Virus record (IMG/VR): IMGVR_UViG_3300045131_001994 | Coordinates: 1-38,593 of that record | Strand: one strand, 5' to 3' | From: a virus | DNA: 38,593 nucleotides | In this document: piece after piece, positions 1-38,593 of the stretch | Layout of the letters: each line of letters starts with the position of its first letter | Numbering within the stretch: position 1 is the stretch's first letter | Translations under genes and position numbers: made by a program | The notes under the pieces: model-generated | What the model was told of the DNA's origin: nothing | Database searches by the model: none | Seen by the model: the letters and a program-made list of their open reading frames with translations, nothing else

Positions 1-127
1 GGCAGACTGTCCGTCCGCTATGACGCCGGCAATCCAGGCTTTGAACAAAAATGCCTGGTTGAAAATACAGCCATGAAAATTGAGCTTATCCGCTATCGCG
101 TTGGTGAAACGCGCGGTGAAACATTGC
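1..127. repeat. Terminal direct repeat, left copy (circular overlap)
   Basis: These 127 bases are identical to the last 127 bases of the window. The repeat lies inside a coding region and the reading frame continues correctly across it, so it marks the closure of a circular sequence. A length of 127 equals a common maximum assembly k-mer, so an assembly overlap is likelier than a real short terminal repeat on the virion DNA. Confidence 0.95.
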
Positions 128-5976: not shown

Positions 5977-6257
5977 TTTTTAATTCTCCGGATTAAAACT
6001 TGCATCACAGAACCTCCGTTTTCTTCGCCACAAAGATCGCATATAGAATCAACACCAAAATCAGATAATACACAATGCTCGGACTTACGCCATGCATCTA
6101 GTATTTTATGTTTTATGGCACACTTTTCGCAGATTGTTTTCCATTCCGGTTTAATATCTTTAACTGCCGGAAACCATTTTTGACACTTTTCACAAAGATC
6201 ATTATCGGCATCAAACATGATTACTTTATTACTGCCACATTTTGGACAAATTTTCAT
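5973..6257 (-). CDS. Double zinc-ribbon protein
   Basis: A 94-residue protein with three CxxC pairs: 'ICPKCGSNKV' at the N-terminus followed by 'LCEKCQKWF', then 'ICEKCAIKH', and 'ICDLCGEENGG' near the C-terminus. The pattern suggests two or more zinc ribbons. The start is preceded by GAGGTAG. Such proteins may bind nucleic acid or act as adaptors to host RNA polymerase. Nothing here shows which. Confidence 0.6.
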   Translation of the reverse strand: MKICPKCGSNKVIMFDADNDLCEKCQKWFPAVKDIKPEWKTICEKCAIKHKILDAWRKSEHCVLSDFGVDSICDLCGEENGGSVMQVLIRRIKK

Positions 6258-6265
6258 TTTCTACC

Positions 6266-6625
6266 TCACAATAATGTTAATTGGTTCTGATTGTTGCCAT
6301 ACTTCCGAGTGCTGGCGTGATGACCGGCATCGTGCGACAAATGGCATTTCTGACACAATGCTTTCAGGTTTTCCGGGCGGTTATCGGTTATATCATGGTT
6401 GAGATGTGCGACCGTCAATACGATTGTAATAATCTTTGCGCCGTCCAGAGTATCCGCTTCTTGCTGCATACCGCACGATTCAATAAATTTACCTTGCTTG
6501 TCGCGGTATCCGGTAGCATGATTCTTGACCCGGCAAATCTCGCAGCGGTATCCGGCGCGTCTCAGGATCGCCGGACGTATCTCTGTTTTCCAGTTAAACG
6601 GATATTTTTTGTAGTCTATTGGCAT
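6266..6625 (-). CDS. HNH endonuclease
   Basis: A 119-residue protein with a clear HNH core: zinc pair 'YRCEICR' (Cys28, Cys31), the catalytic strand 'VAHLNHD' (His74, Asn76, His77), 'NRPENLKALC' with the conserved Asn86, and 'CQKCHLSHD' (Cys91, Cys94, His95, His98). The family cuts DNA using a single metal ion. Here it sits in the early operon far from the terminase, so it may act on host DNA, recombination intermediates or mobility rather than packaging. It overlaps the upstream gene by ten bases. Confidence 0.85.
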   Translation of the reverse strand: MPIDYKKYPFNWKTEIRPAILRRAGYRCEICRVKNHATGYRDKQGKFIESCGMQQEADTLDGAKIITIVLTVAHLNHDITDNRPENLKALCQKCHLSHDAGHHASTRKYGNNQNQLTLL

Positions 6626-7146
6626 GATTCACCTGTTTTTGTTATTGGATATTTGATTAATTGTGCGGTTTTAGGCAGATATAACGGATGTTTTGGATTG
6701 CCGTCTGCATTCACTCCAAAGCAAAACAACTTATCGGCGGGGAGAATGGCGGTTACGGTATTGACGCGCTCTTCAATGCCGTTAAAGCTGCCCCAGCAAG
6801 CAACAATCGTATCGGCTCGTTCAGCCACTTTCGACAGATAAAAATCATTAAACGTTCCGACTGGATCACTGGCTGAAAACATGTCTTTCGGTTTAGTGGC
6901 GCGGAATACGAAAAGATTTGTCATTTCCATTGCATGGTAGCCAAGCCTTTTTGAAAAATCTATTAACCGGCGAATAGTAGCATCGTTAATTGATTCATCA
7001 GCGGTTGAAGGATTCAATCCGATAAACATAATCCGCTTGATATTGCTTGAATCAAACAAATCAGCATTGCATAAGCGCCATAGCACATAGCGATACTTGC
7101 GATCGTCTGACAAGATTGTCCTTTTATCATCAACAAGAATGCTCAT
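6616..7146 (-). CDS. DUF1643 family protein
   Basis: A 176-residue protein with the DUF1643 signature: 'YRYVLWRLCN', 'IMFIGLNPSTADESINDATI', 'ATNLF'-like 'MTNLFVFRATKP', then 'IVACWGS' and a final 'FCFGVNADGNPKHPLYLP'. The family is widespread in phages and in bacterial islands and has a fold recalling uracil-DNA glycosylase-like proteins; its reaction is not known to me. A strong AAGGGGGAA site precedes the ATG. It directly follows the coiled-coil gene. Confidence 0.85.
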   Translation of the reverse strand: MSILVDDKRTILSDDRKYRYVLWRLCNADLFDSSNIKRIMFIGLNPSTADESINDATIRRLIDFSKRLGYHAMEMTNLFVFRATKPKDMFSASDPVGTFNDFYLSKVAERADTIVACWGSFNGIEERVNTVTAILPADKLFCFGVNADGNPKHPLYLPKTAQLIKYPITKTGESCQ

Positions 7147-7455: not shown

Positions 7456-8289
7456 TTAAAAGTTAAATACTATCTGGCCGTTTGGCTCGATGATTAAGTC
7501 TGCTTGTATCGGCTCCGGAACCTTGACCGGCTCCGGAGTGGCTGGCTCTGATTCCGCCTGATGTTCAATCTCAATGGCCCGGCGAATATGCCGATGGATA
7601 TTGTCCAGCCGTAAACGTTGCGGCCAGCCGGCAAAGAAGTATACCGGGGTGTAATGCTGAAAGTATAATTCCTGTGTTATAGTGTTCCGGCGTTCAATCA
7701 GTCCGGCGATTCCAGACAAAGCAAGCTGTACATACGTCATGTGCGTTGCTGTAAAGTCCAAGTCCTGAGTAATAACAAAAAGCTGAGTTGACGGATTAAA
7801 GCCAAGCTCTTTGAACGTCTCAGCAAAGGCCAGAACCATGCCCCCTGCCCCGGAACACGGTTCGTTCATCGTTATATATCCGTTGCGGTCAATCAAGCCT
7901 TGCAGATGATCTTTATCGGCGTTCATCTGTGCCATAAGCTTCTGGACGCAATACGGCGTGAAGAATTGGCCCATGTTCTCGTTTTGCATTTCCAGTTCAT
8001 GGAAGATGCTGCCGAGGAAGTCGCCACCCTCTACTTCCAGACCGAAAACCACGCTGGTAAATAACTCGGCCAGTAATTGGTATTTCTTCGGATACTGCCG
8101 GGCGATCTCTTTATAGCGCTCTTCGTCTTTTTCATTCTTATAGAACGGCTGGCGCAATTCGATTGCCGCCATTTCGCAGAAGTCCTGAAATACCCGCCAG
8201 CGGCTATGGCTGTAACACAATTCATTAAATATACTAATGAATGCCTTGCGCGGATGTTCTGTGATGATGGGCTTGATAGACTTGCTCAT
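7456..8289 (-). CDS. N6-adenine methylase-fold protein lacking visible motif IV
   Basis: A 277-residue protein. Residues 107-112 'GQFFTP' and residues 143-151 'EPCSGAGGM' are the S-adenosylmethionine-binding signatures of the HsdM/N6_Mtase family, preceded by 'DFLGSIFHEL'. The later 'MTYVQLALSGI' with 'RRNTI' recalls short relatives on conjugative elements that have the same end. No (N/D)PP(Y/F) catalytic motif is visible, so DNA methylation is doubtful; it may be degenerate, an antirestriction decoy, or modify another substrate. The C-terminal 50 residues are Pro/Glu-rich. It overlaps the E1-like gene by ATGA and probably works with that cassette. Confidence 0.75.
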   Translation of the reverse strand: MSKSIKPIITEHPRKAFISIFNELCYSHSRWRVFQDFCEMAAIELRQPFYKNEKDEERYKEIARQYPKKYQLLAELFTSVVFGLEVEGGDFLGSIFHELEMQNENMGQFFTPYCVQKLMAQMNADKDHLQGLIDRNGYITMNEPCSGAGGMVLAFAETFKELGFNPSTQLFVITQDLDFTATHMTYVQLALSGIAGLIERRNTITQELYFQHYTPVYFFAGWPQRLRLDNIHRHIRRAIEIEHQAESEPATPEPVKVPEPIQADLIIEPNGQIVFNF

Positions 8290-8999
8290 TTCTTCCGCTT
8301 TCCCTTATCTTCAATCGCAACCGGCAGCGTCCGTCCAGTCTTCAGGTTGATGTAATACCCGCGATGGTCCAGACCGCCATGACGGAACAGCGACCAGAGC
8401 AGTTGCAGGGCGCAAGTTGCCACCGCCTGGTTGATGAATAGTTCCTGACTGCCGAGAGCTTCAGCCAGACTGCATGACGGCGTGTTATCTTCTGGGATGG
8501 ACGTGTCTATCAGTTCCGGGCAGGTTTGCCAGGGATAGGGAAGCTGCTTGCCGTCGCCGATCAGCACTTGCCCGAAATCGGCGCTATTCCCGCAGTCCAG
8601 ATAATACAGGCCAGTTCGCATCAACTGCTCTCTTATTTCAAGGCGCGATGCTCTTGAATCAACGCATCCAATCACTATATCGGAAGAAAATATTCCGTCG
8701 TGTTTTTCCGGCATGGCGCGCCAGTCCAGCCGGAAGCCGACATTCAGCCGATTAATTAGCGCGGTTGCCTTATTCGTGCCGACATCACCGGGCCAGAATA
8801 ACTGCCGGCCGACGTTCGCTTCTGAAACATTGTCCGGGTCATAGGCGGTAACCATAAGCCCGCCCGGATGCCCCAGCGCAATCATAGACAGATGCAGTCT
8901 GGCCAGCCCGGACAGAATCATGCTGCCGGTACCGCCGCAGCCAACGACGCTGACGTTGACGCTATCGGACAGCAAGCCTGTGCAAATAGTATGTTTCAT
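8286..8999 (-). CDS. PRTRC system ThiF/E1-like ubiquitin-activating family protein
   Basis: A 237-residue protein of the ThiF/MoeB/E1 superfamily, which adenylates the C-terminus of ubiquitin-like proteins. Visible are the nucleotide loop 'GCGGTGS' (residues 20-26), 'YDPDNVSEANVGRQLF' with Asp54/Asp56, Asn62, Arg65 and Gln66, the conserved 'DVGTNKA' lysine (Lys77), 'GCVDSRASR' (Asp114), and 'SCSLAEALGS', where Cys176 is a candidate thioester cysteine. The zinc CxxC pairs of MoeB are absent, as expected for the PRTRC ThiF group. It is coupled by 4-base overlaps to PRTRC-B upstream and the methylase-like gene downstream. Confidence 0.9.
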   Translation of the reverse strand: MKHTICTGLLSDSVNVSVVGCGGTGSMILSGLARLHLSMIALGHPGGLMVTAYDPDNVSEANVGRQLFWPGDVGTNKATALINRLNVGFRLDWRAMPEKHDGIFSSDIVIGCVDSRASRLEIREQLMRTGLYYLDCGNSADFGQVLIGDGKQLPYPWQTCPELIDTSIPEDNTPSCSLAEALGSQELFINQAVATCALQLLWSLFRHGGLDHRGYYINLKTGRTLPVAIEDKGKRKK

Positions 9000-9709
9000 T
9001 TCAAAATGTCCTTTAATTTGTGTTCTGTTTTTATCAGCGCGGCGGATGAAAACTTATCCTGTGGATGCTTGACGGCCGAAAGCCATAAGCGGTCATGTCC
9101 GCCGTTGGCAATCTCACTGCCTGCATTCGGATGAGTGAATGCGGATTCATAGAACGCCGTCTGCATCTTATCAGTAATCGCAATAGATATGCCGTCAAGT
9201 CCGTTTTTGCTCCAGAGTTTTTCCCGGATCCCGGACGGCATGCACACGCCGCCAGTGTCGTTGACATTCCAGAACGGCGCGCGGTAGAGTGCGGTTGACG
9301 GTTCCGGACGCTTGTCACCGGACAGCGCCCAGCATTTCAATGACTGGCGCGTCAATCGGAAGAGCAGTGCCGGCCAGCGAACATCCTTGCCGCTGATTTT
9401 GTTCATTTTACGGCCCGTGGTACTGGTTGCCTTAAAAAATATCGGAGCCGTTTTCTGTTTGACATACCAAGTGATTGAATCCGCGCTGAATTCAATAATG
9501 TTTGCCGGAAGATAAGTTCCGGCAGCGCGTTTGCCGTCATTGCGAAAAAGCTCTTCAACGTCCGCATTATCCAGCGGCGTTCCGGCTTGTATCACTCCGT
9601 CAAGGGAAACCCGATTTAGCGTGGCAAAGGTATTGCCGCTGCCCTGGTAGATCAGGATAGCTTTATCCAGCCTTGCGCTTGACAAAACGCTTACATATTT
9701 TATGTTCAT
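8996..9709 (-). CDS. PRTRC system protein B (E2-like)
   Basis: A 237-residue protein. The start at 9709 is chosen because it forms an ATGA overlap with the PRTRC-F stop and has AAAGGTGA upstream; the longer frame to 9751 lacks this. PRTRC-B is described in the literature as an E2-like (UBC fold) family. The hallmark region here is 'LYRAPFWNVN' followed by 'GGVCMPSG', in which Cys156 sits where the E2-like catalytic cysteine is expected. It would accept the ubiquitin-like protein from the neighbouring ThiF protein. The assignment by motif and gene order is strong; activity is inferred. Confidence 0.85.
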   Translation of the reverse strand: MNIKYVSVLSSARLDKAILIYQGSGNTFATLNRVSLDGVIQAGTPLDNADVEELFRNDGKRAAGTYLPANIIEFSADSITWYVKQKTAPIFFKATSTTGRKMNKISGKDVRWPALLFRLTRQSLKCWALSGDKRPEPSTALYRAPFWNVNDTGGVCMPSGIREKLWSKNGLDGISIAITDKMQTAFYESAFTHPNAGSEIANGGHDRLWLSAVKHPQDKFSSAALIKTEHKLKDILK

Positions 9710-10833
9710 GCTGTCACCTTTAATTTTTCGGGAGATTTTGATTGCAGCCATATCAGCAGTTCCGCAACGGCATTCATGCAGTCCAGATATGTCCGCAATG
9801 CTTCCAATGCGATAACCGCCTCATCATAGCCGCCAGTCTTGAACGGCAGGCAAAACGGACACAGATAGATCGTTCCGCCATAATTATTATATTGCTCTTC
9901 AATCGTATCATCCCAAAACGTATTGAAGAGGCCTTCGGCTTGCAACGTTTCTGCTTCCAGCCCGATCAGCCGGACACCCGGGAGAGTGCCGTTGATGTAC
10001 TCGCGCGAAAATTTGTATTTCTTCCACGCTGCGAAATACTTTTTATTGGCGGCTTTCAGCTTTTGCACCGGAACCGGCAATACCCCGGAATACTTCTTGC
10101 TTTTGCTGAATAACCATTTGGGATAGGCGACATTGAAGTCATCGCGGGTAATCGGGCAGAATTCGGAAATTTCCTGTTCCATGTCATCGCGCTGCTCTTC
10201 ATCTACGTCTTCAGAATCTTCGGGGATGTAACCGGACCTTATCTCTTCTACTCGATCGGTTTCATCCGGCGACCCCATCCAGTAATTACATGATACTTGA
10301 TTCAGTAATTCTCTTGGGGTCATAACATAAACCGGGCTTTCGTCTATGATGTCGAGTATCGCCCTGGCTTCGTCTTCCGGAAGCGTCCGCAGGTATGAAG
10401 CGTCACACTCCCGGTTCTGCTCGCTGGTCATATGGACAAACAATACTGGGCCTTCTGGATAAAAAGTATCGCTGAACTCCTGTTTCGCTACTTCCGGATG
10501 TAATATCGAAAGCTCCGGATAAAATACTTGTTCCATTTCCAGGTAATCATGCCCGCGGTAAATCCATCCTGACACCCGGGAACAGAGCAGCTTGTCAATC
10601 GTATCAGCCGGGTTCATAATGTCCGCCAGATTGCCGGTTGACATGCTCAGGTCTATGCAATTACTCAGCATGGCAAGCATATCCAATGCAAAACTATCCC
10701 CGGCGACAGCGTTTATTTCAAGCTGAATGTCCGGCGACAGTTTCGGCAATGTCAGAAAAGCGGGGGCAGCAGCTCTGCCGGGCATTGTCCCGGACGGCTT
10801 TGATATACCGCGTGAAGCAACTTTTTTGCGCAT
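9706..10833 (-). CDS. PRTRC system protein F
   Basis: A 375-residue protein matching the PRTRC-F family in overall features: an N-terminal 'FLTLPKLSPDIQ', a middle acidic stretch (about residues 190-215, rich in Asp/Glu), and a C-terminal 'IYLCPFCLPF' followed by a long helix with 'ALEALRTYLDCMNAV'. Its biochemical role is not known. The start at 10833 has AGGA nine bases upstream; an internal ATG at codon 17 is an alternative closer to the family's usual beginning. The first 82 coding bases overlap a small gene in another frame, and the stop overlaps PRTRC-B. Confidence 0.8.
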   Translation of the reverse strand: MRKKVASRGISKPSGTMPGRAAAPAFLTLPKLSPDIQLEINAVAGDSFALDMLAMLSNCIDLSMSTGNLADIMNPADTIDKLLCSRVSGWIYRGHDYLEMEQVFYPELSILHPEVAKQEFSDTFYPEGPVLFVHMTSEQNRECDASYLRTLPEDEARAILDIIDESPVYVMTPRELLNQVSCNYWMGSPDETDRVEEIRSGYIPEDSEDVDEEQRDDMEQEISEFCPITRDDFNVAYPKWLFSKSKKYSGVLPVPVQKLKAANKKYFAAWKKYKFSREYINGTLPGVRLIGLEAETLQAEGLFNTFWDDTIEEQYNNYGGTIYLCPFCLPFKTGGYDEAVIALEALRTYLDCMNAVAELLIWLQSKSPEKLKVTA

Positions 10834-10952
10834 TCTCTGTGTTCCTGTTTGAATTTATTGATGATTAATTTTTCATCTTTTACTTTCTCCGGAAGCAGAC
10901 CGATAATCTCTTCCGGAGAAAGCGCCTTGCGTATGGGATACGCTCTCTTCAT
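10752..10952 (-). CDS. Small overlapping protein between PRTRC-C and PRTRC-F
   Basis: A 66-residue basic protein whose ATG overlaps the PRTRC-C stop (ATGA), with AAGGG just upstream. Residues 1-50 look like genuine coding sequence ('LSPEEIIGLLPEKVKDEKLI', helical), while its 3' end overlaps the PRTRC-F start by 82 bases. It falls in the cassette where other PRTRC loci may carry PRTRC-A, but it is far too short to be a JAB peptidase and shows no HxH motif. Its function is unknown and it could be a remnant. Confidence 0.5.
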   Translation of the reverse strand: MKRAYPIRKALSPEEIIGLLPEKVKDEKLIINKFKQEHRECAKKLLHAVYQSRPGQCPAELLPPLF

Positions 10953-11173
10953 CCCTTAGTACCGGTCTGAATATTGAACGTCCAAACATTCTTGCCGTTG
11001 CTGGCGACCGGCCCTTTGATCCCGGCGTTATTCAGTTCCGGGTAAGTTCCGGCGTAGAAGTTCCTGACTTCATCGGTTGTCATTGATGCTTCAGGATCCG
11101 GCAGGCTCATGCCGTTGAAACTAAAGGAGCGTTCGAGGTTCTTGTCTGTGGTGGTAGTCTTTTTGGTAGCCAT
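10949..11173 (-). CDS. PRTRC system protein C, ubiquitin-like (Prok_Ub) protein
   Basis: A 74-residue protein of the PRTRC-C/Prok_Ub family, which has a ubiquitin-like beta-grasp fold. The family core is clear: 'RSFSFNGMSLPDPEASMT' then 'EVRNFYAGTYPEL', 'AGIKGP' and a closing strand 'NVWTFNIQTG'. The protein ends in a lone glycine ('TGTKG'), the residue that E1 enzymes adenylate in ubiquitin-like modifiers. Together with the E1-like and E2-like genes downstream this gives a complete activation path without needing processing. The ribosome site AAGGAA lies ten bases upstream. Confidence 0.88.
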   Translation of the reverse strand: MATKKTTTTDKNLERSFSFNGMSLPDPEASMTTDEVRNFYAGTYPELNNAGIKGPVASNGKNVWTFNIQTGTKG

Positions 11174-11204
11174 AATGTATAATTCCTTATTTGATGGTTA
11201 TTGA

Positions 11205-11840
11205 TTAAAATTCAAAAGTGGCTTGTTTGACTGGGGTCGCTGCCGGAGCTGATTCTACTGCCTGGCAAGCACTGCACAAGTCTTTTTCGACCCATGAGCA
11301 CGGCCCGGAATCCGTATGACACGGTGTCATTTCCGTGCATCCGCAAACGCGGCAACGCTGCTCAGGCTCTTCAACTGGCGGTAATTCTACATCCGGAGCA
11401 TCCTTCTTTTCCGGCGCTTCCGTCAGCTTTCCAATGTCCGGAGACGGTTGTCTTTCGCCCAGGCTTTTAATCTCTTTCGCCGGCGTAAACCTGCATTTGC
11501 CGACATGTTCCTTGTCAAGTAGACAACGGGAACCGTTACTGTCGCCCTTTTGGCATCTGGCGGCATCTTCTATTTCGCTATCCTCTTCATCCGCTTCCGG
11601 CTCTTTTGCTGCCGGAGCCTTTGCCGCCAGTGCAGCAGCAACATAATCTGGAAGATTTGCGGAATGATGAAGATTGTTCATAATCTCTTCGACCGTGCCC
11701 TTTGCGATGAATGGCAGGATCTTGTCATTGCCAGCATTCGCCGGCGCGATTCCGAGAATGAATTTCTCTTCGTTCAGATAGGTAAACGCTATGTTCACCT
11801 GCTTTTTGGCTTGCGCCAGTTCGACCAGTCTGTTCAGCAT
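11205..11840 (-). CDS. PRTRC system protein E with C-terminal zinc modules
   Basis: A 211-residue protein. The start at 11840 has GGAGA upstream; an earlier frame start at 11885 is poorer. Residues 1-60 fit PRTRC-E ('LNRLVELAQAKKQ', 'ILPFIAKGTVEEIM'). After an acidic/alanine linker, residues 96-116 carry 'RCLLDKEHVGKC', and residues 163-192 carry a dense cysteine cluster 'CRVCGCTEMTPC' followed by 'CSWVEKDLCSAC', a zinc module seen in many phage proteins. PRTRC-E has no known activity; here the zinc modules suggest binding to DNA or a partner. It is the first PRTRC gene in transcription order. Confidence 0.75.
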   Translation of the reverse strand: MLNRLVELAQAKKQVNIAFTYLNEEKFILGIAPANAGNDKILPFIAKGTVEEIMNNLHHSANLPDYVAAALAAKAPAAKEPEADEEDSEIEDAARCQKGDSNGSRCLLDKEHVGKCRFTPAKEIKSLGERQPSPDIGKLTEAPEKKDAPDVELPPVEEPEQRCRVCGCTEMTPCHTDSGPCSWVEKDLCSACQAVESAPAATPVKQATFEF

Positions 11841-11875
11841 GTTCTTGTCTCCGTTTTTTGGTTTTGGTTTGGTTA

Positions 11876-12331
11876 TTAATCGCAATCATCAGAATAATAG
11901 CTATCAAGCCATTCTTTTGATTCTTTTGCATAGTCAAAATCATAAATAAAATTCTTAAAAAATAATCCCCCTTTTTGCTTGATTGCGGCTAAAATACAAG
12001 CCGGACAGCCATTTGTTTTTTCCCTGAGTTTTTTTAGTGAATCAGCGGCTATTTGTAAAGTTTCTCTGCTTAACGCATTTTTTTCATATTGGGCATTTTC
12101 GCCAGCTCCATTCCACGGTTTGCCTATTGCCACAAACAATGAATCATCGGGCAGAATATCCATTAACTCATCTATTGAAAGTTGACTGCAATCCTCGTTT
12201 CTTTGACACATTCTACAAACGCGCCTGGGATTTGCTGTACAATGCAGTTCATGTTTTTGCATATGCCCGCCAGAACATGATGACTTTTTGCAATATTCAC
12301 AATAATAACGGTTTACTTTTTTTACTTTCAT
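11876..12331 (-). CDS. Zinc-finger protein, phage/plasmid type
   Basis: A 151-residue protein. The start at 12331 is chosen for its AAAGGAACG site; the frame remains open to 12370. The N-terminus has 'YYCEYCKKSSCSGGHMQKHE' followed by 'LHCTANPRRVCRMC', a CxxC...HxxxH...C pattern typical of a small zinc finger found in phages and plasmids. The remainder is helical and contains 'GCPACILAAIKQKG', another CxxC. It precedes the PRTRC genes in the operon. It may bind DNA; no precise role. Confidence 0.65.
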   Translation of the reverse strand: MKVKKVNRYYCEYCKKSSCSGGHMQKHELHCTANPRRVCRMCQRNEDCSQLSIDELMDILPDDSLFVAIGKPWNGAGENAQYEKNALSRETLQIAADSLKKLREKTNGCPACILAAIKQKGGLFFKNFIYDFDYAKESKEWLDSYYSDDCD

Positions 12332-12357: not shown

Positions 12358-12993
12358 TTAAAATTTCCATCCGGTGGACGGCTGAAATAAGTCTTGCTCT
12401 ACTGCTGATACTGCCGGAGCCGGAACAATGTCCGGGTTAATAAAACGGCGTTCCGCGGGAACTTCGTAAATCTTCCGGCAGTGGACATAACATGATTTTA
12501 AATCTTTTTTTACCGGAGTTCTGGTTGCCAGACGCGGAACAAAAGTCCTTTCAAAAAACTTTTCAGGAATAACCTTATTACAAAAAATTCCATGCTTTTC
12601 CCATGTTAATTTTTGAATGATTGAAAATTTAGCTTCGTCGTTATAAATGCTATATTTGCCTTTGACATCTATCCAATATTCGCGGTTATCCGGACTAAAT
12701 AGCCGGTGATCTATGCGCTGAAGGTCTGGCGTTGCGATAAAAGAGAAGTCCGGAGTGTAGCAGCAATCCTGCATTAGATGTCTTTTGATAATTTTAGTCT
12801 TGGTAGGTAATTGCTCTCTGATATAAAATGACGCAGGAGGTATTAATTCAAATTCTTCAGGATGAGTCCTGAAATTTACGATCATTCCCGCATCTTTCGC
12901 CTCTTCCAGCCATTGATAAAATTCAATTTCTTCTGGACTGTCAAACTCGATTCCAGCATACCTTAATTTCTTTTTTTCTTTTGTTTTAGTCAT
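12358..12993 (-). CDS. PD-(D/E)XK nuclease, DUF1064 / resolvase-like
   Basis: A 211-residue protein starting at ATG 12993 (AAGGA upstream; the frame reaches 12999 as TTG). It shows the nuclease pattern: 'FDSPEEIEFYQWL' (Glu21/Glu22), 'CYTPDFSF' (Asp82) and 'YWIDVKGKY' (Asp109, Lys111), followed by helices. This is the arrangement of DUF1064 and Holliday-junction-resolving or endonuclease-I-like phage enzymes. Located between replication genes and the PRTRC cassette, it probably processes replication or recombination intermediates. Confidence 0.75.
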   Translation of the reverse strand: MTKTKEKKKLRYAGIEFDSPEEIEFYQWLEEAKDAGMIVNFRTHPEEFELIPPASFYIREQLPTKTKIIKRHLMQDCCYTPDFSFIATPDLQRIDHRLFSPDNREYWIDVKGKYSIYNDEAKFSIIQKLTWEKHGIFCNKVIPEKFFERTFVPRLATRTPVKKDLKSCYVHCRKIYEVPAERRFINPDIVPAPAVSAVEQDLFQPSTGWKF

Positions 12994-13585
12994 TTTCAAT
13001 CCTTATCTGCTTTTGTGCTTCCGTGTAACGCCTGTCGCATTCCCAAACTAAATTCCACGCCGCCTCTTCACCGCCAATAATCTGTTCCCCGTGTTCCATA
13101 CTCCAGGGAATTGAATTTTTGACGGCATTAACCCTTGATTGCATGGAACATTCAGCTTCCGATACATTCAGATAACCGATTGAACACCGGCAAGGATGAA
13201 CATACCAGGCAATCAAAGGATACGGCGCGACAGGCGGACGGCGGACGTCAACCAGTTTACCAGCATGGACAACAATAATTACGCTGCCAAGGCCATCACA
13301 ATACCCGCAGGTGCTCTTTCCGATTGCGGCCGTACGCCGTTTTTCATCGGAAACCGTTTTTATCGTGTAATACTGTGCTTTTATTTCAGCCAACTTTGGA
13401 GCGCTGGTCTGCCGCCCGGCAGTCTTATTGATTGCCACCACTTCAGCCAGCCGCTCAACTGCCTCTTTGAGAATTTCGCCGTCACATTTTTCGACGAATT
13501 CAGACCAGAACTGCTCACCGTCAACATCCGTCAGCCGGTGAAAGTTTGCAGCATACATCTGCTTGAATTTTTCATAATTTGCCAT
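12986..13585 (-). CDS. Probable replication accessory protein with zinc motif
   Basis: A 199-residue protein. Residues 1-85 are helical and resemble the N-terminal region of phage helicase-loader/primosomal proteins ('FKQMYAANFHRLT', 'LKEAVERLAEVVA'). Residues 92-135 include 'TCGYCDGLGSVIIV' and, 40 residues on, 'HPCRCSIGY', a four-cysteine zinc-binding arrangement. It directly follows the replication-protein gene, which suggests loading of helicase or primase. That role is inferred from layout. Confidence 0.5.
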   Translation of the reverse strand: MANYEKFKQMYAANFHRLTDVDGEQFWSEFVEKCDGEILKEAVERLAEVVAINKTAGRQTSAPKLAEIKAQYYTIKTVSDEKRRTAAIGKSTCGYCDGLGSVIIVVHAGKLVDVRRPPVAPYPLIAWYVHPCRCSIGYLNVSEAECSMQSRVNAVKNSIPWSMEHGEQIIGGEEAAWNLVWECDRRYTEAQKQIRIEND

Positions 13586-13593
13586 TTTTTACC

Positions 13594-14382
13594 TCAATCA
13601 AGACTTGTTGAACGCATGTGAACCGGGATGGATTCTTTTTTACTTGCTGGAATTCTCTGCATCCAGATTTTTTCATCTTCAAAATATCCGCCGCCAGCAT
13701 ACCAGTTGTTTGAACCGGTGATGAAGCGGTGTTGATCCTGTGGCCATTGCTCAACGATTGACGCATACAGCTCTGTCCGTTCTTCAATGAATGCAATTGC
13801 CTCTTCGATTGTTTTTACGGGGGGATTATCAAAAACTTTCTGAATTGCTTTTTTAACGTCTGCCGCTGATTGTGTCGGCATGATTGCTTTTGGATGTTTT
13901 TTAAGAATTCTCTCAGCCGCTTGGATTAAAAAGTTGTCGTTAATCTCTATATCATCCCCCGCTGGGGGTAAGGGGGGATTTAATGTATTATCTTCTTTCT
14001 CCTTTCTCCTTTCTTCTTTCTTCTTAGTTGGGGGTACCTTCTTTATCTCAGCTGATTTCTTGCCAGCTTCAGAACATTTCTTTAAATATTCAAGATGTTT
14101 TTCTAATTGCAGTGTAATAAATTTTACGCTCAAAAAACCATCTTTTTCTATTATTATTTCAAGTTCTTTAAGGTCGGTCAAGCAACCTTCAAGGTAGGTT
14201 GAAGGTACCTTTAATTTTTTTGCTAAAAAACGGTCATTTTTTAAAACACCATTTTCGCGCCAAAGTAAAGCTAGAAGGTTGACGAAGGTACCTTGATATT
14301 CCTGAGAAACCAATTGAATTTTTCCAGTAAGCCAATCATCCGTATCAAATTTAAAGAACGGTAGCCTTTTATCTTTAGCCAT
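13594..14382 (-). CDS. Phage replication protein, DUF1376-like N-terminus
   Basis: A 262-residue protein starting at ATG 14382 (a TTG at 14388 is also open). The opening 'LPFFKFDTDDWLTGKIQLV' and 'GTFVNLLALLWRENG' are typical of the winged-helix N-terminal domain of DUF1376/replication-initiation proteins. A highly charged Lys/Glu linker at about residues 118-135 follows, then a C-terminal segment ending in 'FITGSNNWYAGGGYFED', which resembles the conserved end of phage replisome organisers. It likely binds the phage origin or loads helicase together with the next gene. Confidence 0.65.
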   Translation of the reverse strand: MAKDKRLPFFKFDTDDWLTGKIQLVSQEYQGTFVNLLALLWRENGVLKNDRFLAKKLKVPSTYLEGCLTDLKELEIIIEKDGFLSVKFITLQLEKHLEYLKKCSEAGKKSAEIKKVPPTKKKEERRKEKEDNTLNPPLPPAGDDIEINDNFLIQAAERILKKHPKAIMPTQSAADVKKAIQKVFDNPPVKTIEEAIAFIEERTELYASIVEQWPQDQHRFITGSNNWYAGGGYFEDEKIWMQRIPASKKESIPVHMRSTSLD

Positions 14383-14384
14383 TT

Positions 14385-14726
14385 TCAAAACCCTAATATT
14401 ACTGGTTGCATTCTGTCCAGTGAAGCATCATAGAACTGGACCCGGCGAATAACCTTTTGGGGAGGCTGTAACATGCTTTTAACCGCTTGCAGTCCTGTTT
14501 CCGTGATAAACGTCCGGCAGTAAACTTCCCGGCTTTCGCCACGTTCATAGCTGCCTTTTTTAACGCGGAACCATGACATGTAACGCTGGTATGGCATGTT
14601 ATCGGCCATAAGAACTCCCGCCTGCCGTAACTGTCCAAACAGAATAGTGGGGCCGGTGCTGATTCCCATAGAGGAAAGAATCTTCGCGGCATCCTGAATT
14701 GAAAAGCATCCGGCAGGCGGGGTCAT
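14385..14726 (-). CDS. KilAC-domain (antirepressor C-terminal type) protein
   Basis: A 113-residue protein that consists of a KilAC/ANT domain only: 'FSIQDAAKILSSMGI', 'ILFGQLRQAGVLM', 'PYQRYMSWFRVKKGSY' and 'TFITETGLQAV' match the consensus. The usual N-terminal BRO, KilA-N or AntA domain is absent. The family binds DNA and often acts as an antirepressor or early regulator. A good GAGGT site precedes it, and the stop overlaps the replication-gene start region. Confidence 0.8.
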   Translation of the reverse strand: MTPPAGCFSIQDAAKILSSMGISTGPTILFGQLRQAGVLMADNMPYQRYMSWFRVKKGSYERGESREVYCRTFITETGLQAVKSMLQPPQKVIRRVQFYDASLDRMQPVILGF

Positions 14727-14731
14727 ATTAA

Positions 14732-15580
14732 TTACCTCAATTCTGCTGGGTTGACGAATTCATGTTCGCCGGTATGCCCTCTGACAAGCTTGCACATCTG
14801 CACGCCGTCTTCGTGCATTTCTTTGCACATATTCAGATTGCAGTTGCCGTCATGCCCTTTGTCCAGAACGCAGCGCAATCCGCTTTTCTCATGGACATTC
14901 TCGCAACGCTCCGGCGCTGTGGCTTCTTTTGCTTTGCGCGGCTTCTTTTCCGGTTTGGCTTCCGGGAGAAGAGACAATTCAATTTTTTCTTGAAGACTGA
15001 AAACTGTCTTTCCATCGCCGGCAACGCCGCGGATAACGCGGTATTTGTCCGAGTTTTCCAGATTAACGGTATCGTGTTTGACCATTTCGCGATCATTGAC
15101 CGGTCCAAAAACAGTTTTCCATCCGGCAGAAGTGAAATTGTCCGCGTCGCGGTTGTCAACCAGGACGGATGAGCGATTGTTGAACGTGAAATATTCAGTC
15201 TCACTTTCGTCGGCCTGCAACCCGAGGCAGTTGATGAACAGATCTTCCATTTCGCCGGAAGTCATCTGCTCAAGCGATACCTTTTCGCCAGTGTCGGCCC
15301 GGAATGTTGTCTTGAATCCAGCTTCCGGATGATTATAAGTGATGATACACTTAACATCTCTCATTTCGCGTTCTGATTGCAGCAGTTGCGAATAGCGTTC
15401 AATATTGGAATCGCATTCCAGCACCTGGGCTTTGAATTTGCTAGATACAGACTTCAATTCGTTTTCAAGCCTGCCCTTGCGCTGATTCTCGCCGGAAAGC
15501 ATCTTGCCGTACTCTTTGAGTTGCGGCGCCGGAATTACACACTCCAAGCTCTTTTCGATCTCTCGTTCATTGTTTTTCAT
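14732..15580 (-). CDS. Early protein with coiled coil and two C-terminal zinc modules
   Basis: A 282-residue protein. Residues 1-75 are predicted coiled coil; residues 76-115 contain 'VKCIITYNHPEAGFKT', a strand region resembling small phage proteins of unknown role; residues 209-223 are basic and rich in Lys, Pro and Ala. The C-terminus has two related Cys/His units: 'RCVLDKGHDGNC' (Cys237, His243, Cys247) and 'MCKLVRGHTGEHE' (Cys263, His269, His273), each with an upstream cysteine. The first unit closely resembles one in the PRTRC-E-like protein. It sits among recombination genes; a nucleic-acid-binding role is inferred. Confidence 0.55.
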   Translation of the reverse strand: MKNNEREIEKSLECVIPAPQLKEYGKMLSGENQRKGRLENELKSVSSKFKAQVLECDSNIERYSQLLQSEREMRDVKCIITYNHPEAGFKTTFRADTGEKVSLEQMTSGEMEDLFINCLGLQADESETEYFTFNNRSSVLVDNRDADNFTSAGWKTVFGPVNDREMVKHDTVNLENSDKYRVIRGVAGDGKTVFSLQEKIELSLLPEAKPEKKPRKAKEATAPERCENVHEKSGLRCVLDKGHDGNCNLNMCKEMHEDGVQMCKLVRGHTGEHEFVNPAELR

Positions 15581-15620: not shown

Positions 15621-15701
15621 TTAATTTTTGATAGTGAGCCTTTTCTCTTCATGCTCAGGAAGTGGCGGTGCCCTCTGGATGCATGGCTGTACGTTATTCA
15701 T
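15621..15701 (-). CDS. Possible 26-residue peptide
   Basis: An ATG at 15701 overlaps the NinB-like stop by eight bases and opens 26 codons rich in Pro, Glu and Lys ('APPLPEHEEKRLTIKN' at the end). The ribosome site is weak. It fills an otherwise empty 110-base gap. It may be a leader peptide or simply chance. Confidence 0.25.
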   Translation of the reverse strand: MNNVQPCIQRAPPLPEHEEKRLTIKN

Positions 15702-16071
15702 AATCCACGCGCTCTGGATCCGGGATGATAATATTCTGTTCACTTGCCCAGGCGCGGATTTGCTCTATGTAATCTTCAAATTCTTTAGTGGTAAGTTTGG
15801 TTGTAGACCTGCCGCCAAGAAACTTATTTTTAAACTCCTTGTGCTGTTCGGAGGCGGCATGTCCGGTTGATTCTGACGTAAGTTTAATCACCACTCCCCA
15901 GTAATATGAATTCTGGTCTACGGAACGATCTTTCACGGGCTTCCGGACGATAATTTCAATATCTCCGTAAAGGTTGGCAATGGCGGCAATCCAGCGGGCG
16001 CGCTCCATGGCCTCGAACGCCAGCTTGCCGCTTATCACTTTCCCGCGAATGATTGTTCCAAGTTCGCTCAT
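15694..16071 (-). CDS. NinB/Orf-like recombination protein
   Basis: A 125-residue protein; the start at 16071 forms an ATGA overlap with the recT stop. 'DRSVDQNSYYWGVVI' resembles the conserved 'RSxxQN..(L/Y)W' core of the NinB family and its relatives, and the C-terminal 'FEDYIEQIRAWASEQ' followed by 'IIIPDPE' is common in this phage group. NinB (lambda Orf) is a recombination mediator that helps load annealing or exchange proteins. The position right after recT supports this. The family call is moderate because the protein is shorter than lambda NinB. Confidence 0.65.
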   Translation of the reverse strand: MSELGTIIRGKVISGKLAFEAMERARWIAAIANLYGDIEIIVRKPVKDRSVDQNSYYWGVVIKLTSESTGHAASEQHKEFKNKFLGGRSTTKLTTKEFEDYIEQIRAWASEQNIIIPDPERVDYE

Positions 16072-17072
16072 GCTTTGGCTGTCACCCATTCAGCAGCAGC
16101 CTTGATGAAGTCCGGGGTTTTATTGCGGATGAAGTCAGACCATTTGGTGAGCTTAGGATTGCTTTCCATTTCATCCAATGGAGTGGTTATTTTCTTAAAC
16201 GCGAGATAATCAGCAATATCCTGAATAGTCACAGGAGCCCTGGAAGCCGTGATTTCCGCCTGTACGATTTCCGACAGCGGCGGAACAACTTCAGCGGTTT
16301 TGCTCACTTCGTTAGCAGTCTGCAACCCGAGTTGCGCTTTCAGATCCGCAATAGACGCGCCGCCCTTAACTTCTTTGGCCGGGGTAATGTTCTTCATCGG
16401 TTCTTCATCCAGTTCATCCGGAGTGTACACCCCAAGGATAACTTCCGGACAATATAACCGGCTCCAGCGCTTGACGGCCAGATAGGCAAGCTGCTGTTTG
16501 GGATCACTGGCCCAAAGAGTGGAATTGCGAACAGTCGCCTGAGAAAGCAGTAACGGAAGAACGCGGGGTTCGTCTTCACCTTTAAGCGTCGCCCAAACTT
16601 TCACGCCACAGCCCTCTTCGTCTGCCGGGCTCCATGCCGGAGCCTGATACTCTCCGTTTGCCCCTTTGATTATTTTGAATTTACCGATTACCCGCTCCCA
16701 TGGTCCATACCATTCGTAATGAATCCTGTCTTTGCAAGGCGCCATGGTGTTAATGACTGCGTTGACCAGTTGAGCTTCATAGCCCAAGGTTCCTTTGACA
16801 ATATGCGTTTTCTGCGCTACGGCGTAGGGATTCATCCCCCACATGGCCGATTGCATGCAGACCGCGAAACAATCGCCTCTGTTGCCGCGCAAATGCTGAG
16901 GAACAGTGCAACTGCCAGATGACATAATGTCCGCAATGCGTTCAAGGGCGGCAAATTTGCCGCCGTCAAACAGCAGATTAGCTTCCGGAGACAGTACCGC
17001 CGCCTGTTGATCGGTGATTGCCGGAAGAGTTTCGGTTTTAGCCTCTTCGAGTTCTTTCTTTTTGTCGTTCAT
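16068..17072 (-). CDS. recT: RecT-family single-strand annealing protein
   Basis: A 334-residue protein with the RecT core: 'HLRGNRGDCFAVCMQSAMWG' then 'NPYAVAQKTHIV', 'LGYEAQLVNAVI', and 'DPKQQLAYLAVKRWSRLYCP' with a following 'VILGVYTPDE'. RecT proteins anneal complementary DNA strands and work with an exonuclease. The gene lies 20 bases after the YqaJ exonuclease gene, the standard pair. The C-terminal 80 residues are less conserved and contain Lys/Thr-rich sequence. It probably serves circularisation or recombination of phage DNA early in infection. Confidence 0.9.
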   Translation of the reverse strand: MNDKKKELEEAKTETLPAITDQQAAVLSPEANLLFDGGKFAALERIADIMSSGSCTVPQHLRGNRGDCFAVCMQSAMWGMNPYAVAQKTHIVKGTLGYEAQLVNAVINTMAPCKDRIHYEWYGPWERVIGKFKIIKGANGEYQAPAWSPADEEGCGVKVWATLKGEDEPRVLPLLLSQATVRNSTLWASDPKQQLAYLAVKRWSRLYCPEVILGVYTPDELDEEPMKNITPAKEVKGGASIADLKAQLGLQTANEVSKTAEVVPPLSEIVQAEITASRAPVTIQDIADYLAFKKITTPLDEMESNPKLTKWSDFIRNKTPDFIKAAAEWVTAKA

Positions 17073-17092: not shown

Positions 17093-18001
17093 TTATTTGA
17101 GCAGAAACGTTCTTGTTTCTGAAACTCTTGTGAATTGTTCAGCAATATCCGGCATCATTGATTTTAATGCCTTAGTGTCAATTGAGTTGCGAGTTCCTGA
17201 CTTCCATGTTGCCAGCTTATTCCCGGAATCATCCAGCAGAATTTCTGAATCGGTCATAAACTTTTTTATCTGAATCTCGTAATCTTCGATACTTGACTCA
17301 ACCGCTTTCTGCTGATCTTTCATTGTCCGTAAAACTTCACAAGCCGCCTGAATATGTTCATCGGCCTTGATAACCTTGCCCTCGACCGAGCGGTACATCT
17401 TTGCCAGGTCTGCCGCCGTTACCGGCTCCGGGGCAATGCCGGTTAAAACGTGATTGCGCCAGAACTCAACGCATTTAGCCGCCATCAGTTCAGCCAGTTC
17501 CTTGTCATAGTCAATCTTATATTGCCGGTATTCGTTGCCGCCAATCAGCACCGCCAGCCAGCCGTATTTTGAACCGGTAACATGCAGATAGTGCATGACC
17601 TGACAGAGATAGTAAGGCGGTATCTTGTCGCCGCCATCGTCATCCCAAAGCTGGGCGGTGTACTTGTCAGCCGTCTTGCACTCCAGAACGCCGCCGCCGA
17701 CCACGCGCCGGTCAATGTTGCCGATCAACTCCGGATGCAGCGGATGACGGAACATAGTATTGCGCCGCTGGACTTTCATTGAATTGCGCCGGCTGAATTC
17801 CTGGGCGATTACATCCTCGAGGACATGGCCGAAATGGAATAATTCAGCCTTGCTTGAATCTTCGATAGTGACGCCGGTTTTCTCCAGATAGAGATCATAA
17901 GGGGTTTTCCATTTGCTTAATCCAAGAACTGCGGCAACATCGCTGCCGCCGATTCCAGAACGTCTTGCCAGCGCGAACTCTTCTTGACTTTCTTCTTTCA
18001 C
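17093..18001 (-). CDS. YqaJ-type viral exonuclease
   Basis: A 302-residue protein starting at GTG 18001, with AAGGAA nine bases upstream. The YqaJ fold is clear: 'SGIGGSDVAAVLGLSKWKTP' at the N-terminus, 'FGHVLEDVIAQEF' (Glu62), 'IGNIDRRV' (Asp97) and 'VLECKT' (Glu107, Lys109), then 'YYLCQVMHYLHVTG'. These make the PD-(D/E)XK catalytic set of lambda-exonuclease-like enzymes that resect 5' ends. The C-terminal part (residues 190-300) has a coiled coil. It partners with RecT immediately downstream. Confidence 0.9.
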   Translation of the reverse strand: MKEESQEEFALARRSGIGGSDVAAVLGLSKWKTPYDLYLEKTGVTIEDSSKAELFHFGHVLEDVIAQEFSRRNSMKVQRRNTMFRHPLHPELIGNIDRRVVGGGVLECKTADKYTAQLWDDDGGDKIPPYYLCQVMHYLHVTGSKYGWLAVLIGGNEYRQYKIDYDKELAELMAAKCVEFWRNHVLTGIAPEPVTAADLAKMYRSVEGKVIKADEHIQAACEVLRTMKDQQKAVESSIEDYEIQIKKFMTDSEILLDDSGNKLATWKSGTRNSIDTKALKSMMPDIAEQFTRVSETRTFLLK

Positions 18002-19348: not shown

Positions 19349-19368
19349 TTGCTATAATTATATAGCAA
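19349..19368. promoter_or_regulatory. 20-bp palindromic operator candidate over the leftward -10 box
   Basis: TTGCTATA and TATAGCAA arms flank ATTA. The palindrome covers the -10 of the leftward early promoter. Additional half sites TTGCTA (19334-19339) and TAGCAA (19373-19378) flank it. This is the expected spot for repressor binding in a lysis-lysogeny switch. Confidence 0.7.
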
Positions 19369-19385
19369 GCAATAGCAAGTGTCAA
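19357..19385 (-). promoter_or_regulatory. Leftward early promoter (consensus sigma-70 type)
   Basis: On the - strand TTGACA (19385-19380), 17 bases, then TATAAT (19362-19357). Both boxes match the consensus exactly. It lies 35 bases upstream of the ribbon-helix-helix gene and should drive the whole early operon, including recombination, replication and PRTRC genes. Confidence 0.85.
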
Positions 19386-19479: not shown

Positions 19480-19875
19480 ATGCTGTTTTATGGCGAAAAA
19501 TTAAAAAAATATCGAGAATCTAAAAAACTGACACAACAAGAACTTGGCGACAAAGTTCAAAGAACGCGTCAGTCTATCGATAATTATGAACGTGGAGAAA
19601 ATAAGCCAACGCCAGAAATAGCCTATGCTATCAGGCGCGTTTTGGGGTGTAGTATATATGATATATCAGATTTAAATCCAGAACCAGATGATCCCGCATT
19701 AAAAAATGATTTTAAAAAAGTTGGAAATCATCCAGTAGATGATATTTTATATAAAGAATGGGAAATCCTTTCAACCGAAAATAAATACAAGGTATTGGGG
19801 TTTATTGAAACGCTAAAAAAAGACGGAGCTAGCGAATGCGATCCGGGGGAGTTTCGCGCTGACAGGACGGCGTGA
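19480..19875 (+). CDS. Cro/CI-type helix-turn-helix repressor
   Basis: A 131-residue protein with an N-terminal HTH_3 (XRE) domain, residues 5-62: 'KLKKYRESKKLTQQELGDKV' then 'RQSIDNYERGENKPTPEIAY'. The rest is short and charged, with 'WEILSTENKYKVLGFIETL' typical of oligomerising tails of small phage repressors. There is no S24/LexA-type autopeptidase domain, so induction would not follow the classic RecA-cleavage route. The ribosome site is AGGAG. It probably represses the divergent leftward promoter. Confidence 0.85.
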   Translation: MLFYGEKLKKYRESKKLTQQELGDKVQRTRQSIDNYERGENKPTPEIAYAIRRVLGCSIYDISDLNPEPDDPALKNDFKKVGNHPVDDILYKEWEILSTENKYKVLGFIETLKKDGASECDPGEFRADRTA

Positions 19876-37954: not shown

Positions 37955-38593
37955 AAGTAACAGTAAATACCCAAACCCGGAAAATATGTAATCCGGACGC
38001 GCCTGAACGTGAAATACTCAATAGCTCGCTGCCACATATCAAATACGGCGATTATGGAGTATTGGAACTTGATTTGATTAATGCCGATGACTCAGTATTT
38101 CCGGTGCTTGAAACCGATACCCTGGAACTGATCGCGGATAAAGATTATGTTCACAGCACCGCCACCGGCGCGCTTAATGCCGCGCTCACCGGCACAATTA
38201 CTGCCGTTGCCGTCAAAACTATTTCCATAGCCCCGCCATTGACCGGATACATTGTGCTGGAGAAAGTCTCAGACGGTACGCGCGAACGGTTTAAATATAC
38301 CGCCAGAACGCTTAATTCCGGCATTTATACGTTTACCGTCAGCCATACTCTTACTGACAGCTTCAGCGAAAATGATATTGTCTATATTGAAGATCCGCTG
38401 ATGCTTTATTCAGGCAGCGAACAGTTCAATATTTCCGGCGACCGCGCTGATTTATCATTAGCCAACGGCAGACTGTCCGTCCGCTATGACGCCGGCAATC
38501 CAGGCTTTGAACAAAAATGCCTGGTTGAAAATACAGCCATGAAAATTGAGCTTATCCGCTATCGCGTTGGTGAAACGCGCGGTGAAACATTGC
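37951..38593 (+). CDS. Tail fibre / receptor-binding protein, N-terminal part (continues at base 1)
   Basis: The start codon has AGGAG eight bases upstream and overlaps the previous stop by ATGA. The frame is open to the end of the window and continues, in frame, from base 128 to 1968, giving 827 residues in all. The N-terminal 190 residues are beta-rich with 'HIKYGDYGVLELDLINADDS' and no collagen repeats, consistent with a domain that anchors the fibre to the tail tip. The receptor-binding modules lie in the other part. Confidence 0.8.
   Translation, partial: MKVTVNTQTRKICNPDAPEREILNSSLPHIKYGDYGVLELDLINADDSVFPVLETDTLELIADKDYVHSTATGALNAALTGTITAVAVKTISIAPPLTGYIVLEKVSDGTRERFKYTARTLNSGIYTFTVSHTLTDSFSENDIVYIEDPLMLYSGSEQFNISGDRADLSLANGRLSVRYDAGNPGFEQKCLVENTAMKIELIRYRVGETRGETL
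38467..38593. repeat. Terminal direct repeat, right copy (circular overlap)
   Basis: Identical to bases 1-127. Removing one copy leaves a 38,466-bp circle. See the left copy for interpretation. Confidence 0.95.

Follow-up and report, generated by a model that had tools for sequence, protein, structure and literature searches.

Operons encoding an E1-like enzyme, an E2-like protein with a histidine downstream of its cysteine, a ubiquitin-like protein (Ubl) with a conserved C-terminal glycine and a helical protein were described in 2006 as operon type 6d (Iyer et al., PMC1779556), and systems of this kind are already known as the PRTRC family; the section of that paper dealing with this type states that a JAB peptidase gene (A) is always present, and it describes neither forms without A nor an association with the replication sliding clamp. 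All of the type 6d components except the JAB gene recur in the 38,593-nucleotide IMG/VR virus record IMGVR_UViG_3300045131_001994 (positions 1 to 38,593, the whole of which is hereafter called the window). With a probability of roughly 40%, we read this locus as a PRTRC-type Ubl-conjugation cascade that lacks the JAB peptidase, is recruited to the replication clamp and is carried in a phage early operon. Relative to the open-access literature searched, in which we found no functional study of PRTRC, the wide carriage by phages, the A-less form with its apparently pre-trimmed Ubl, the adjacency of clamp genes and a motif in protein E are new.

Among described relatives, plasmid pMOL28 of Cupriavidus metallidurans (ParB-E-C-F-B-A-ThiF) shares the E-C-F-B-ThiF order and a 49% identical ThiF; unlike the window, it has ParB and A, and its Ubl continues with AYAQI after KG, whereas the window has neither of these genes and carries a 66-residue open reading frame (ORF) between C and F. 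The cultured, Mu-like Burkholderia phage BgVeeders33 (OK665841; E-C-F-B-A-ThiF), whose cassette is annotated as hypothetical proteins, has the same order, a small ORF in the C/F gap and a 50% identical ThiF, but it belongs to an unrelated phage type, includes A, and its Ubl bears a 62-residue tail after TKG. The nearest ThiF kin (61%) are found in three IMG/VR contigs (L008, L009 and L010), which also lack A and in which recombination and primosomal genes adjoin the cassette; their downstream genes are different, and the L008 Ubl ends in TLG. Bil and CBASS (cyclic oligonucleotide-based antiphage signalling system) Cap2/Cap3 are likewise bacterial E1-E2 systems for Ubl conjugation; Cap2, however, is an E1-E2 fusion, whereas the window encodes separate E1 and E2 proteins and no JAB, and its PADLOC matches are weak and partial.

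The cassette occupies positions 8286-11840 on the minus strand and comprises six genes, transcribed in the order E-C-[66-residue ORF]-F-B-ThiF, which matches the PRTRC order E-C-F-B-(A)-ThiF:

11205..11840, minus strand: PRTRC-E-like protein, directly before C; short N-terminal domain, Cys-rich disordered linker and hydrophobic C-terminal motif
11208..11225, minus strand: QATFEF end of E, resembling a clamp-binding hexapeptide and common to L008
10949..11173, minus strand: PRTRC-C, ubiquitin-like, 74 residues, ending ...TGTKG with Gly as last residue
10752..10952, minus strand: 66-residue ORF in the C/F gap, ending LLPPLF
9706..10833, minus strand: PRTRC-F, mostly helical; start at 10833 or 10785
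8996..9709, minus strand: PRTRC-B, E2-like, with candidate catalytic Cys156 and conserved His193
8286..8999, minus strand: PRTRC ThiF, a stand-alone E1-like adenylating enzyme of 237 residues with candidate Cys176

Five of these genes had been called in a sequence-only reading of the window; their ORFs are intact, all on the minus strand, and comparison with the surveyed cassettes bears out the canonical-looking order that it claimed. The 4-base overlaps by which it joined them hold for F/B and B/ThiF, as well as for ThiF and the following N6-methylase gene, but not elsewhere, as E and C lie 31 bp apart and C and F are separated by the 66-residue ORF that it had missed, whose overlap is 4 bases with C and at most 82 with F.

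Profile searches place the five proteins in the PRTRC families with different strength. ThiF matches TIGR03736 (6.7e-82, 274.5 bits against a cut-off of 144.75) and is thus a PRTRC-type E1, and its profile retrieves solved E1 structures from the PDB (best 1.4e-8). C is identified as PRTRC-C by Prok_Ub (PF14454, 2.4e-23) and TIGR03738 (1.2e-22, 79.8 bits, cut-off 45.95), and B as PRTRC-B by Prok-E2_D (PF14460, 1.7e-26, above cut-off); B also scores 3.4e-43 against a profile built without the window, and 1.5e-35 against TIGR03737, yet there its 122.6 bits stay below the equivalog cut-off of 131.45. Because F had no match in the profile libraries (Pfam, NCBIfam) and E reached TIGR03741 only at 0.0025 (17.7 bits, below the cut-off of 37.95), profiles for both were built from the surveyed loci, excluding the window. 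In these searches F scored 1.5e-9 (7.7e-7 with L008-L010 also excluded), and a profile chain grown from the pMOL28 F alone reached the window protein at 8e-11, which identifies it as PRTRC-F. E, which is 56% identical to L008 E, scored 4e-7 with the family profile and 2e-4 to 8e-4 through a pMOL28 E chain, and was lost from the family profile once L008-L010 were excluded along with the window. The earlier family calls are strong for ThiF, C and B, while those for F and E depend entirely on iterated family profiles; the place of E in the cassette and its terminal motif agree with the call. Taken together, the window cassette almost certainly belongs to PRTRC.

Structural comparisons add less. 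When the PDB was searched by sequence, B, C and E had no relatives there, and what F matched was weak and unconvincing. AlphaFold2 modelled B with confidence (mean predicted local distance difference test score, pLDDT, 87.9), and Foldseek returned nothing for this model at an E-value of 0.001 or below; in a second structural look with residues 64-228, the top rows were mostly E2 or UEV (ubiquitin E2 variant) chains, the best being UBE2H, whose Z of 4.8 across 108 residues is low in itself. This resemblance of the model supports a ubiquitin-conjugating (UBC) fold without being conclusive. The model of F is weak (pLDDT 65.8) and gave no significant Foldseek match.

Both cysteines that had been singled out as catalytic candidates are invariant in homologue alignments, C176 of ThiF in 5/5 sequences and C156 of B in 39/39 together with H193, whose position downstream of the cysteine is as Iyer et al. 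2006 (PMC1779556) describe for E2 proteins in the section on this operon type. The C-terminal Gly74 of the Ubl is conserved as well. Judging from its sequence, the cassette probably performs Ubl conjugation. ThiS and MoaD are sulfur carriers that bear a thiocarboxylate on a C-terminal glycine. By analogy, ThiF could make such a group on the C-terminal Gly of C for nucleic-acid thiolation, an idea that agrees with the place of the E1 in the ThiF superfamily and with the PAPS-reductase-like genes near nine PRTRC loci (L061, L152, L154 and six others); it is nevertheless improbable, since nearly all cassettes retain an E2-like protein whose Cys and His are invariant, and the window gave no relative of the PAPS-reductase-like genes.

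PRTRC carriage extends well beyond this phage. The sequence-only reading held such systems to be known mostly from plasmids and integrated elements; a single-sequence ThiF scan of viral contigs gave one relative, but the alignment query that replaced it recovered at least 110 IMG/VR viral contigs and a further 60 relatives in genomes, and 367 plasmid records have PRTRC genes. With the cultured BgVeeders33 added, rarity of phage carriage is not supported, and the idea that the cassette is unique to the window phage was discarded. Of the 110 viral relatives, 80 were retained for the survey (L008-L086 plus L002). Terminase_6N matched in 12 of 50 PRTRC virus contigs, a lower bound because Mu-like contigs use another terminase, and the early regions of L008 and L010 are of the same kind as that of the window.

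The survey also relates the JAB peptidase to the Ubl C-terminus. Among 134 cassettes having both C and ThiF, A is absent in 95, and there the Ubl terminates exactly in Gly (93) or Ala (2); in 32 of the 39 cassettes with A, 4 to about 100 extra residues follow the conserved KG, and such tails are found only alongside A. This pattern, like the joining of a C-like and a JAB domain within one protein on an Alicyclobacillus plasmid, fits A as a Ubl-processing peptidase, a trimming role predicted in general terms in the relevant section of Iyer et al. 2006 (PMC1779556). Owing to the small number of evolutionary changes, however, the raw count carries no significance value, and the relation is a clade-level pattern, not statistical proof; raw Fisher values were set aside, as A requires just two changes on the ThiF tree and independent pairs do not suffice for a test. 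By its sequence, the window fits the A-less form, with a Ubl (...TKG) that would be encoded pre-trimmed. As had been noted, A and ParB are not visible in the window, where the profiles built for the survey likewise found neither (given the negative JAB profile, an A gene hidden elsewhere in it was rejected), and PRTRC-D had no match among the ten window proteins scanned. Both genes are common in PRTRC systems without being universal and, with A missing in so many surveyed cassettes, these absences are no bar to PRTRC membership.

An A-less Ubl tail flagged in L153 turned out to be an alignment-end effect, the protein ending in GDRG. In L012-L037, mostly Mu-like prophage contigs, TKG is followed by a variable stretch and then, in many, by a conserved end (AHVCPLLDEEVAFINALHARYC); this tail may have a role of its own.

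The link to the sliding clamp rests on gene neighbourhood and on a motif. Clamp genes (DnaN) near PRTRC were first noticed in the plasmid relatives. In a survey with a profile made from plasmid DnaN only, DnaN lies within 10 kb of the cassette in 29 of 158 loci, on the cassette strand in all 29 and within 100 bp in 18, mostly directly before E; in the gut phage contig L004, DnaN and ThiF overlap by 4 bases. Background frequencies by single-query tblastn are 407 of 72,556 plasmids (0.6%) and 98 of 50,697 phages (0.2%), a contrast that is approximate because a profile search is more sensitive than tblastn. Within the PRTRC virus contigs, the Pfam domain DNA_pol3_beta_2 is present in 15 of 50, and L043, L046, L053, L058 and L075 contain a terminase as well as this clamp domain.

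Neighbours across PRTRC loci include ParB, DnaN, helicase and SSB genes. These replication and partition functions point to the element's own replication and not to the counter-Bil role once suggested for the cassette, for which no evidence was found, PADLOC giving only weak matches to CBASS-type E1-E2 fusions. They also bear on the proposal that ParB-like or other proteins bound to DNA are the conjugation targets and that replicon maintenance is secured in this way: several plasmid cassettes have a PRTRC-ParB before E, but this upstream gene is missing from the window and from most phage cassettes, and partition is hardly required of an operon expressed early in lytic growth, which makes such a role quite unlikely here.

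In protein E, a variable linker connects an N-terminal domain with a short motif at the end. The clamp-binding consensus has been published as QL(S/D)LF (PMC9690074); in E, the pattern [SD][LMI]F occurs beyond residue 90 in 32 of 64 clusters (2.1 in shuffles) and Q.[SD][LMI]F in seven of 64 (0.11 in shuffles), the latter being found in none of B, ThiF, F and DnaN; E of L041, with QTSLF, offers a strong case. A C-terminal Q..[LMIF].F is restricted to the E proteins of the window and L008, against 0.02 expected. In the Alicyclobacillus plasmid p1 (L158:5922-6863), one protein combines a C-like Ubl with a JAB domain, and its N-terminus MTTNQSSLF is clamp-motif-like; DnaN lies about 3 kb upstream.

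Several observations weigh against our reading of a conjugation cascade recruited to the clamp. With no DnaN encoded in the window, the host clamp would have to serve, and DnaN may be a mere marker of the replication modules in which PRTRC travels. QATFEF, the end of E in the window and L008, is a loose fit to the clamp motif, which was spotted before being tested and whose matches are made non-independent by family descent. Motif-bearing E proteins are hardly commoner next to DnaN (9/16) than elsewhere (23/48), so that the motif and the DnaN gene count as two separate hints; ThiF, through its conserved QDLFIN, also exceeds shuffles for [SD][LMI]F, which makes this short motif unspecific by itself. 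Furthermore, the A/tail rule rests on few changes on the ThiF tree (two for A, three for tails), and the literature searched gave no demonstrated PRTRC conjugate. Action at the sliding clamp, a step that we infer, is accordingly put forward as tentative.

In the scheme that we favour, ThiF would adenylate the C-terminal Gly of the already-trimmed C, and the Ubl would pass through a cysteine, for which C176 of ThiF is proposed, to Cys156 of the E2-like B; B would then attach it to a target, with F as a possible adaptor, while E would bring the machinery to the sliding clamp by way of its C-terminal motif. What is modified would be the clamp itself or one of its partners at the element's replication fork, in analogy to ubiquitin and SUMO on eukaryotic PCNA. 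Expression would fall early in lytic growth, from a repressor-controlled operon shared with recombination and replication genes. With no A encoded, the modification might be long-lived, or a host enzyme might remove the Ubl.

Extending this to PRTRC as a whole is more doubtful: the family could be a clamp-directed Ubl-conjugation system of mobile elements. E would bind the clamp, and attachment of C to it or to its partners would control phage or plasmid replication, making the system a bacterial equivalent of the modification of PCNA by ubiquitin and SUMO; its A-less members would supply the Ubl in finished form and might have no dedicated means of removing it. If the clamp reading is true, bacterial mobile elements have Ubl modification at replication forks, and phages carry it. 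The clamp-gene adjacency, the E motif and the A/tail rule make this uncharacterised cassette open to direct biochemical tests.

The surroundings of the cassette bear on when it would act:

1..127 and 38467-38593: direct repeat of 127 bp, exact match
19357..19385, minus strand: sigma-70 consensus TTGACA-17-TATAAT, 12/12 matches, facing the early operon of the cassette (consensus match only)
17093-18001, minus strand: RecE, early gene upstream of the cassette on the same strand
16068-17072, minus strand: RecT, likewise upstream
15694-16089, minus strand: NinB-like protein, likewise upstream
13594-14388, minus strand: primosomal-like protein, likewise upstream
12358-12999, minus strand: resolvase, likewise upstream
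7456..8289, minus strand: N6_Mtase-fold protein (PF02384 1e-6, phrog_5696 8.1e-69), overlapping ThiF by 4 bases

The genome had been taken for that of a complete temperate phage, and complete it is: the direct repeat joins its ends, and it has genes for terminase, portal, capsid, tape measure, tyrosine integrase and repressor. The assignment of the cassette to the early operon by the sequence-only reading also stands, in that the genes lie behind a perfect sigma-70 consensus (19385-19357, minus strand; a consensus match only) divergent from the repressor (19480-19875, plus strand). Such a position suits replication or take-over of the host better than defence by the lysogen. Superinfection exclusion or host defence would have a precedent in CBASS type II, where a Ubl system with E1 and E2 acts against phage (PMC10097602), but the genes are downstream of a repressor-controlled early promoter, as judged by consensus, and not at a lysogen-expressed site, which renders this role very improbable.

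Take-over or counter-defence, in which the cascade would, soon after infection and independently of the clamp, tag proteins of host defence or metabolism, agrees with the early lytic position and with the use of Ubl conjugation elsewhere in the phage arms race, as by CBASS Cap2 (PMC10097602). The same cassette is, however, common on large plasmids beside ParB, ParA, DnaN and replication genes, and plasmids do not share a phage's need for take-over of the host; PADLOC moreover found no defence family other than the weak E1-E2 matches, and we consider this explanation unlikely. Searches for relatives of the phage itself gave little: the early region had no megablast match among 50,697 phage records, the major capsid protein yielded no relatives, and a resolvase scan gave two contigs, neither with PRTRC genes nearby.

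Some further features recur around the cassette. Relatives of the N6_Mtase-fold protein are found near PRTRC in five other loci, and ThiF is followed by N6_Mtase-like and DUF1643 genes in the window (7456-8289 and 6616-7146) as well as on an Azospira plasmid (L159:8262-9014 and 11497-12003). E (11205-11840) and a 282-residue early protein (14732-15580) have in common a Cys-rich repeat, RCxx...RCxLDKxHxGxC. In about 26 loci, C and F flank a small ORF outside the named PRTRC set; in the window (10752-10952), L159:4319-4555, L157:899-1081 and L150:3086-3316 it ends in PP[LC][FIM], the remainder being dissimilar. Finally, the cassette of a Vibrio alfacsensis plasmid (L157) contains two B (E2-like) genes, at 2130-2858 and 6207-6935.

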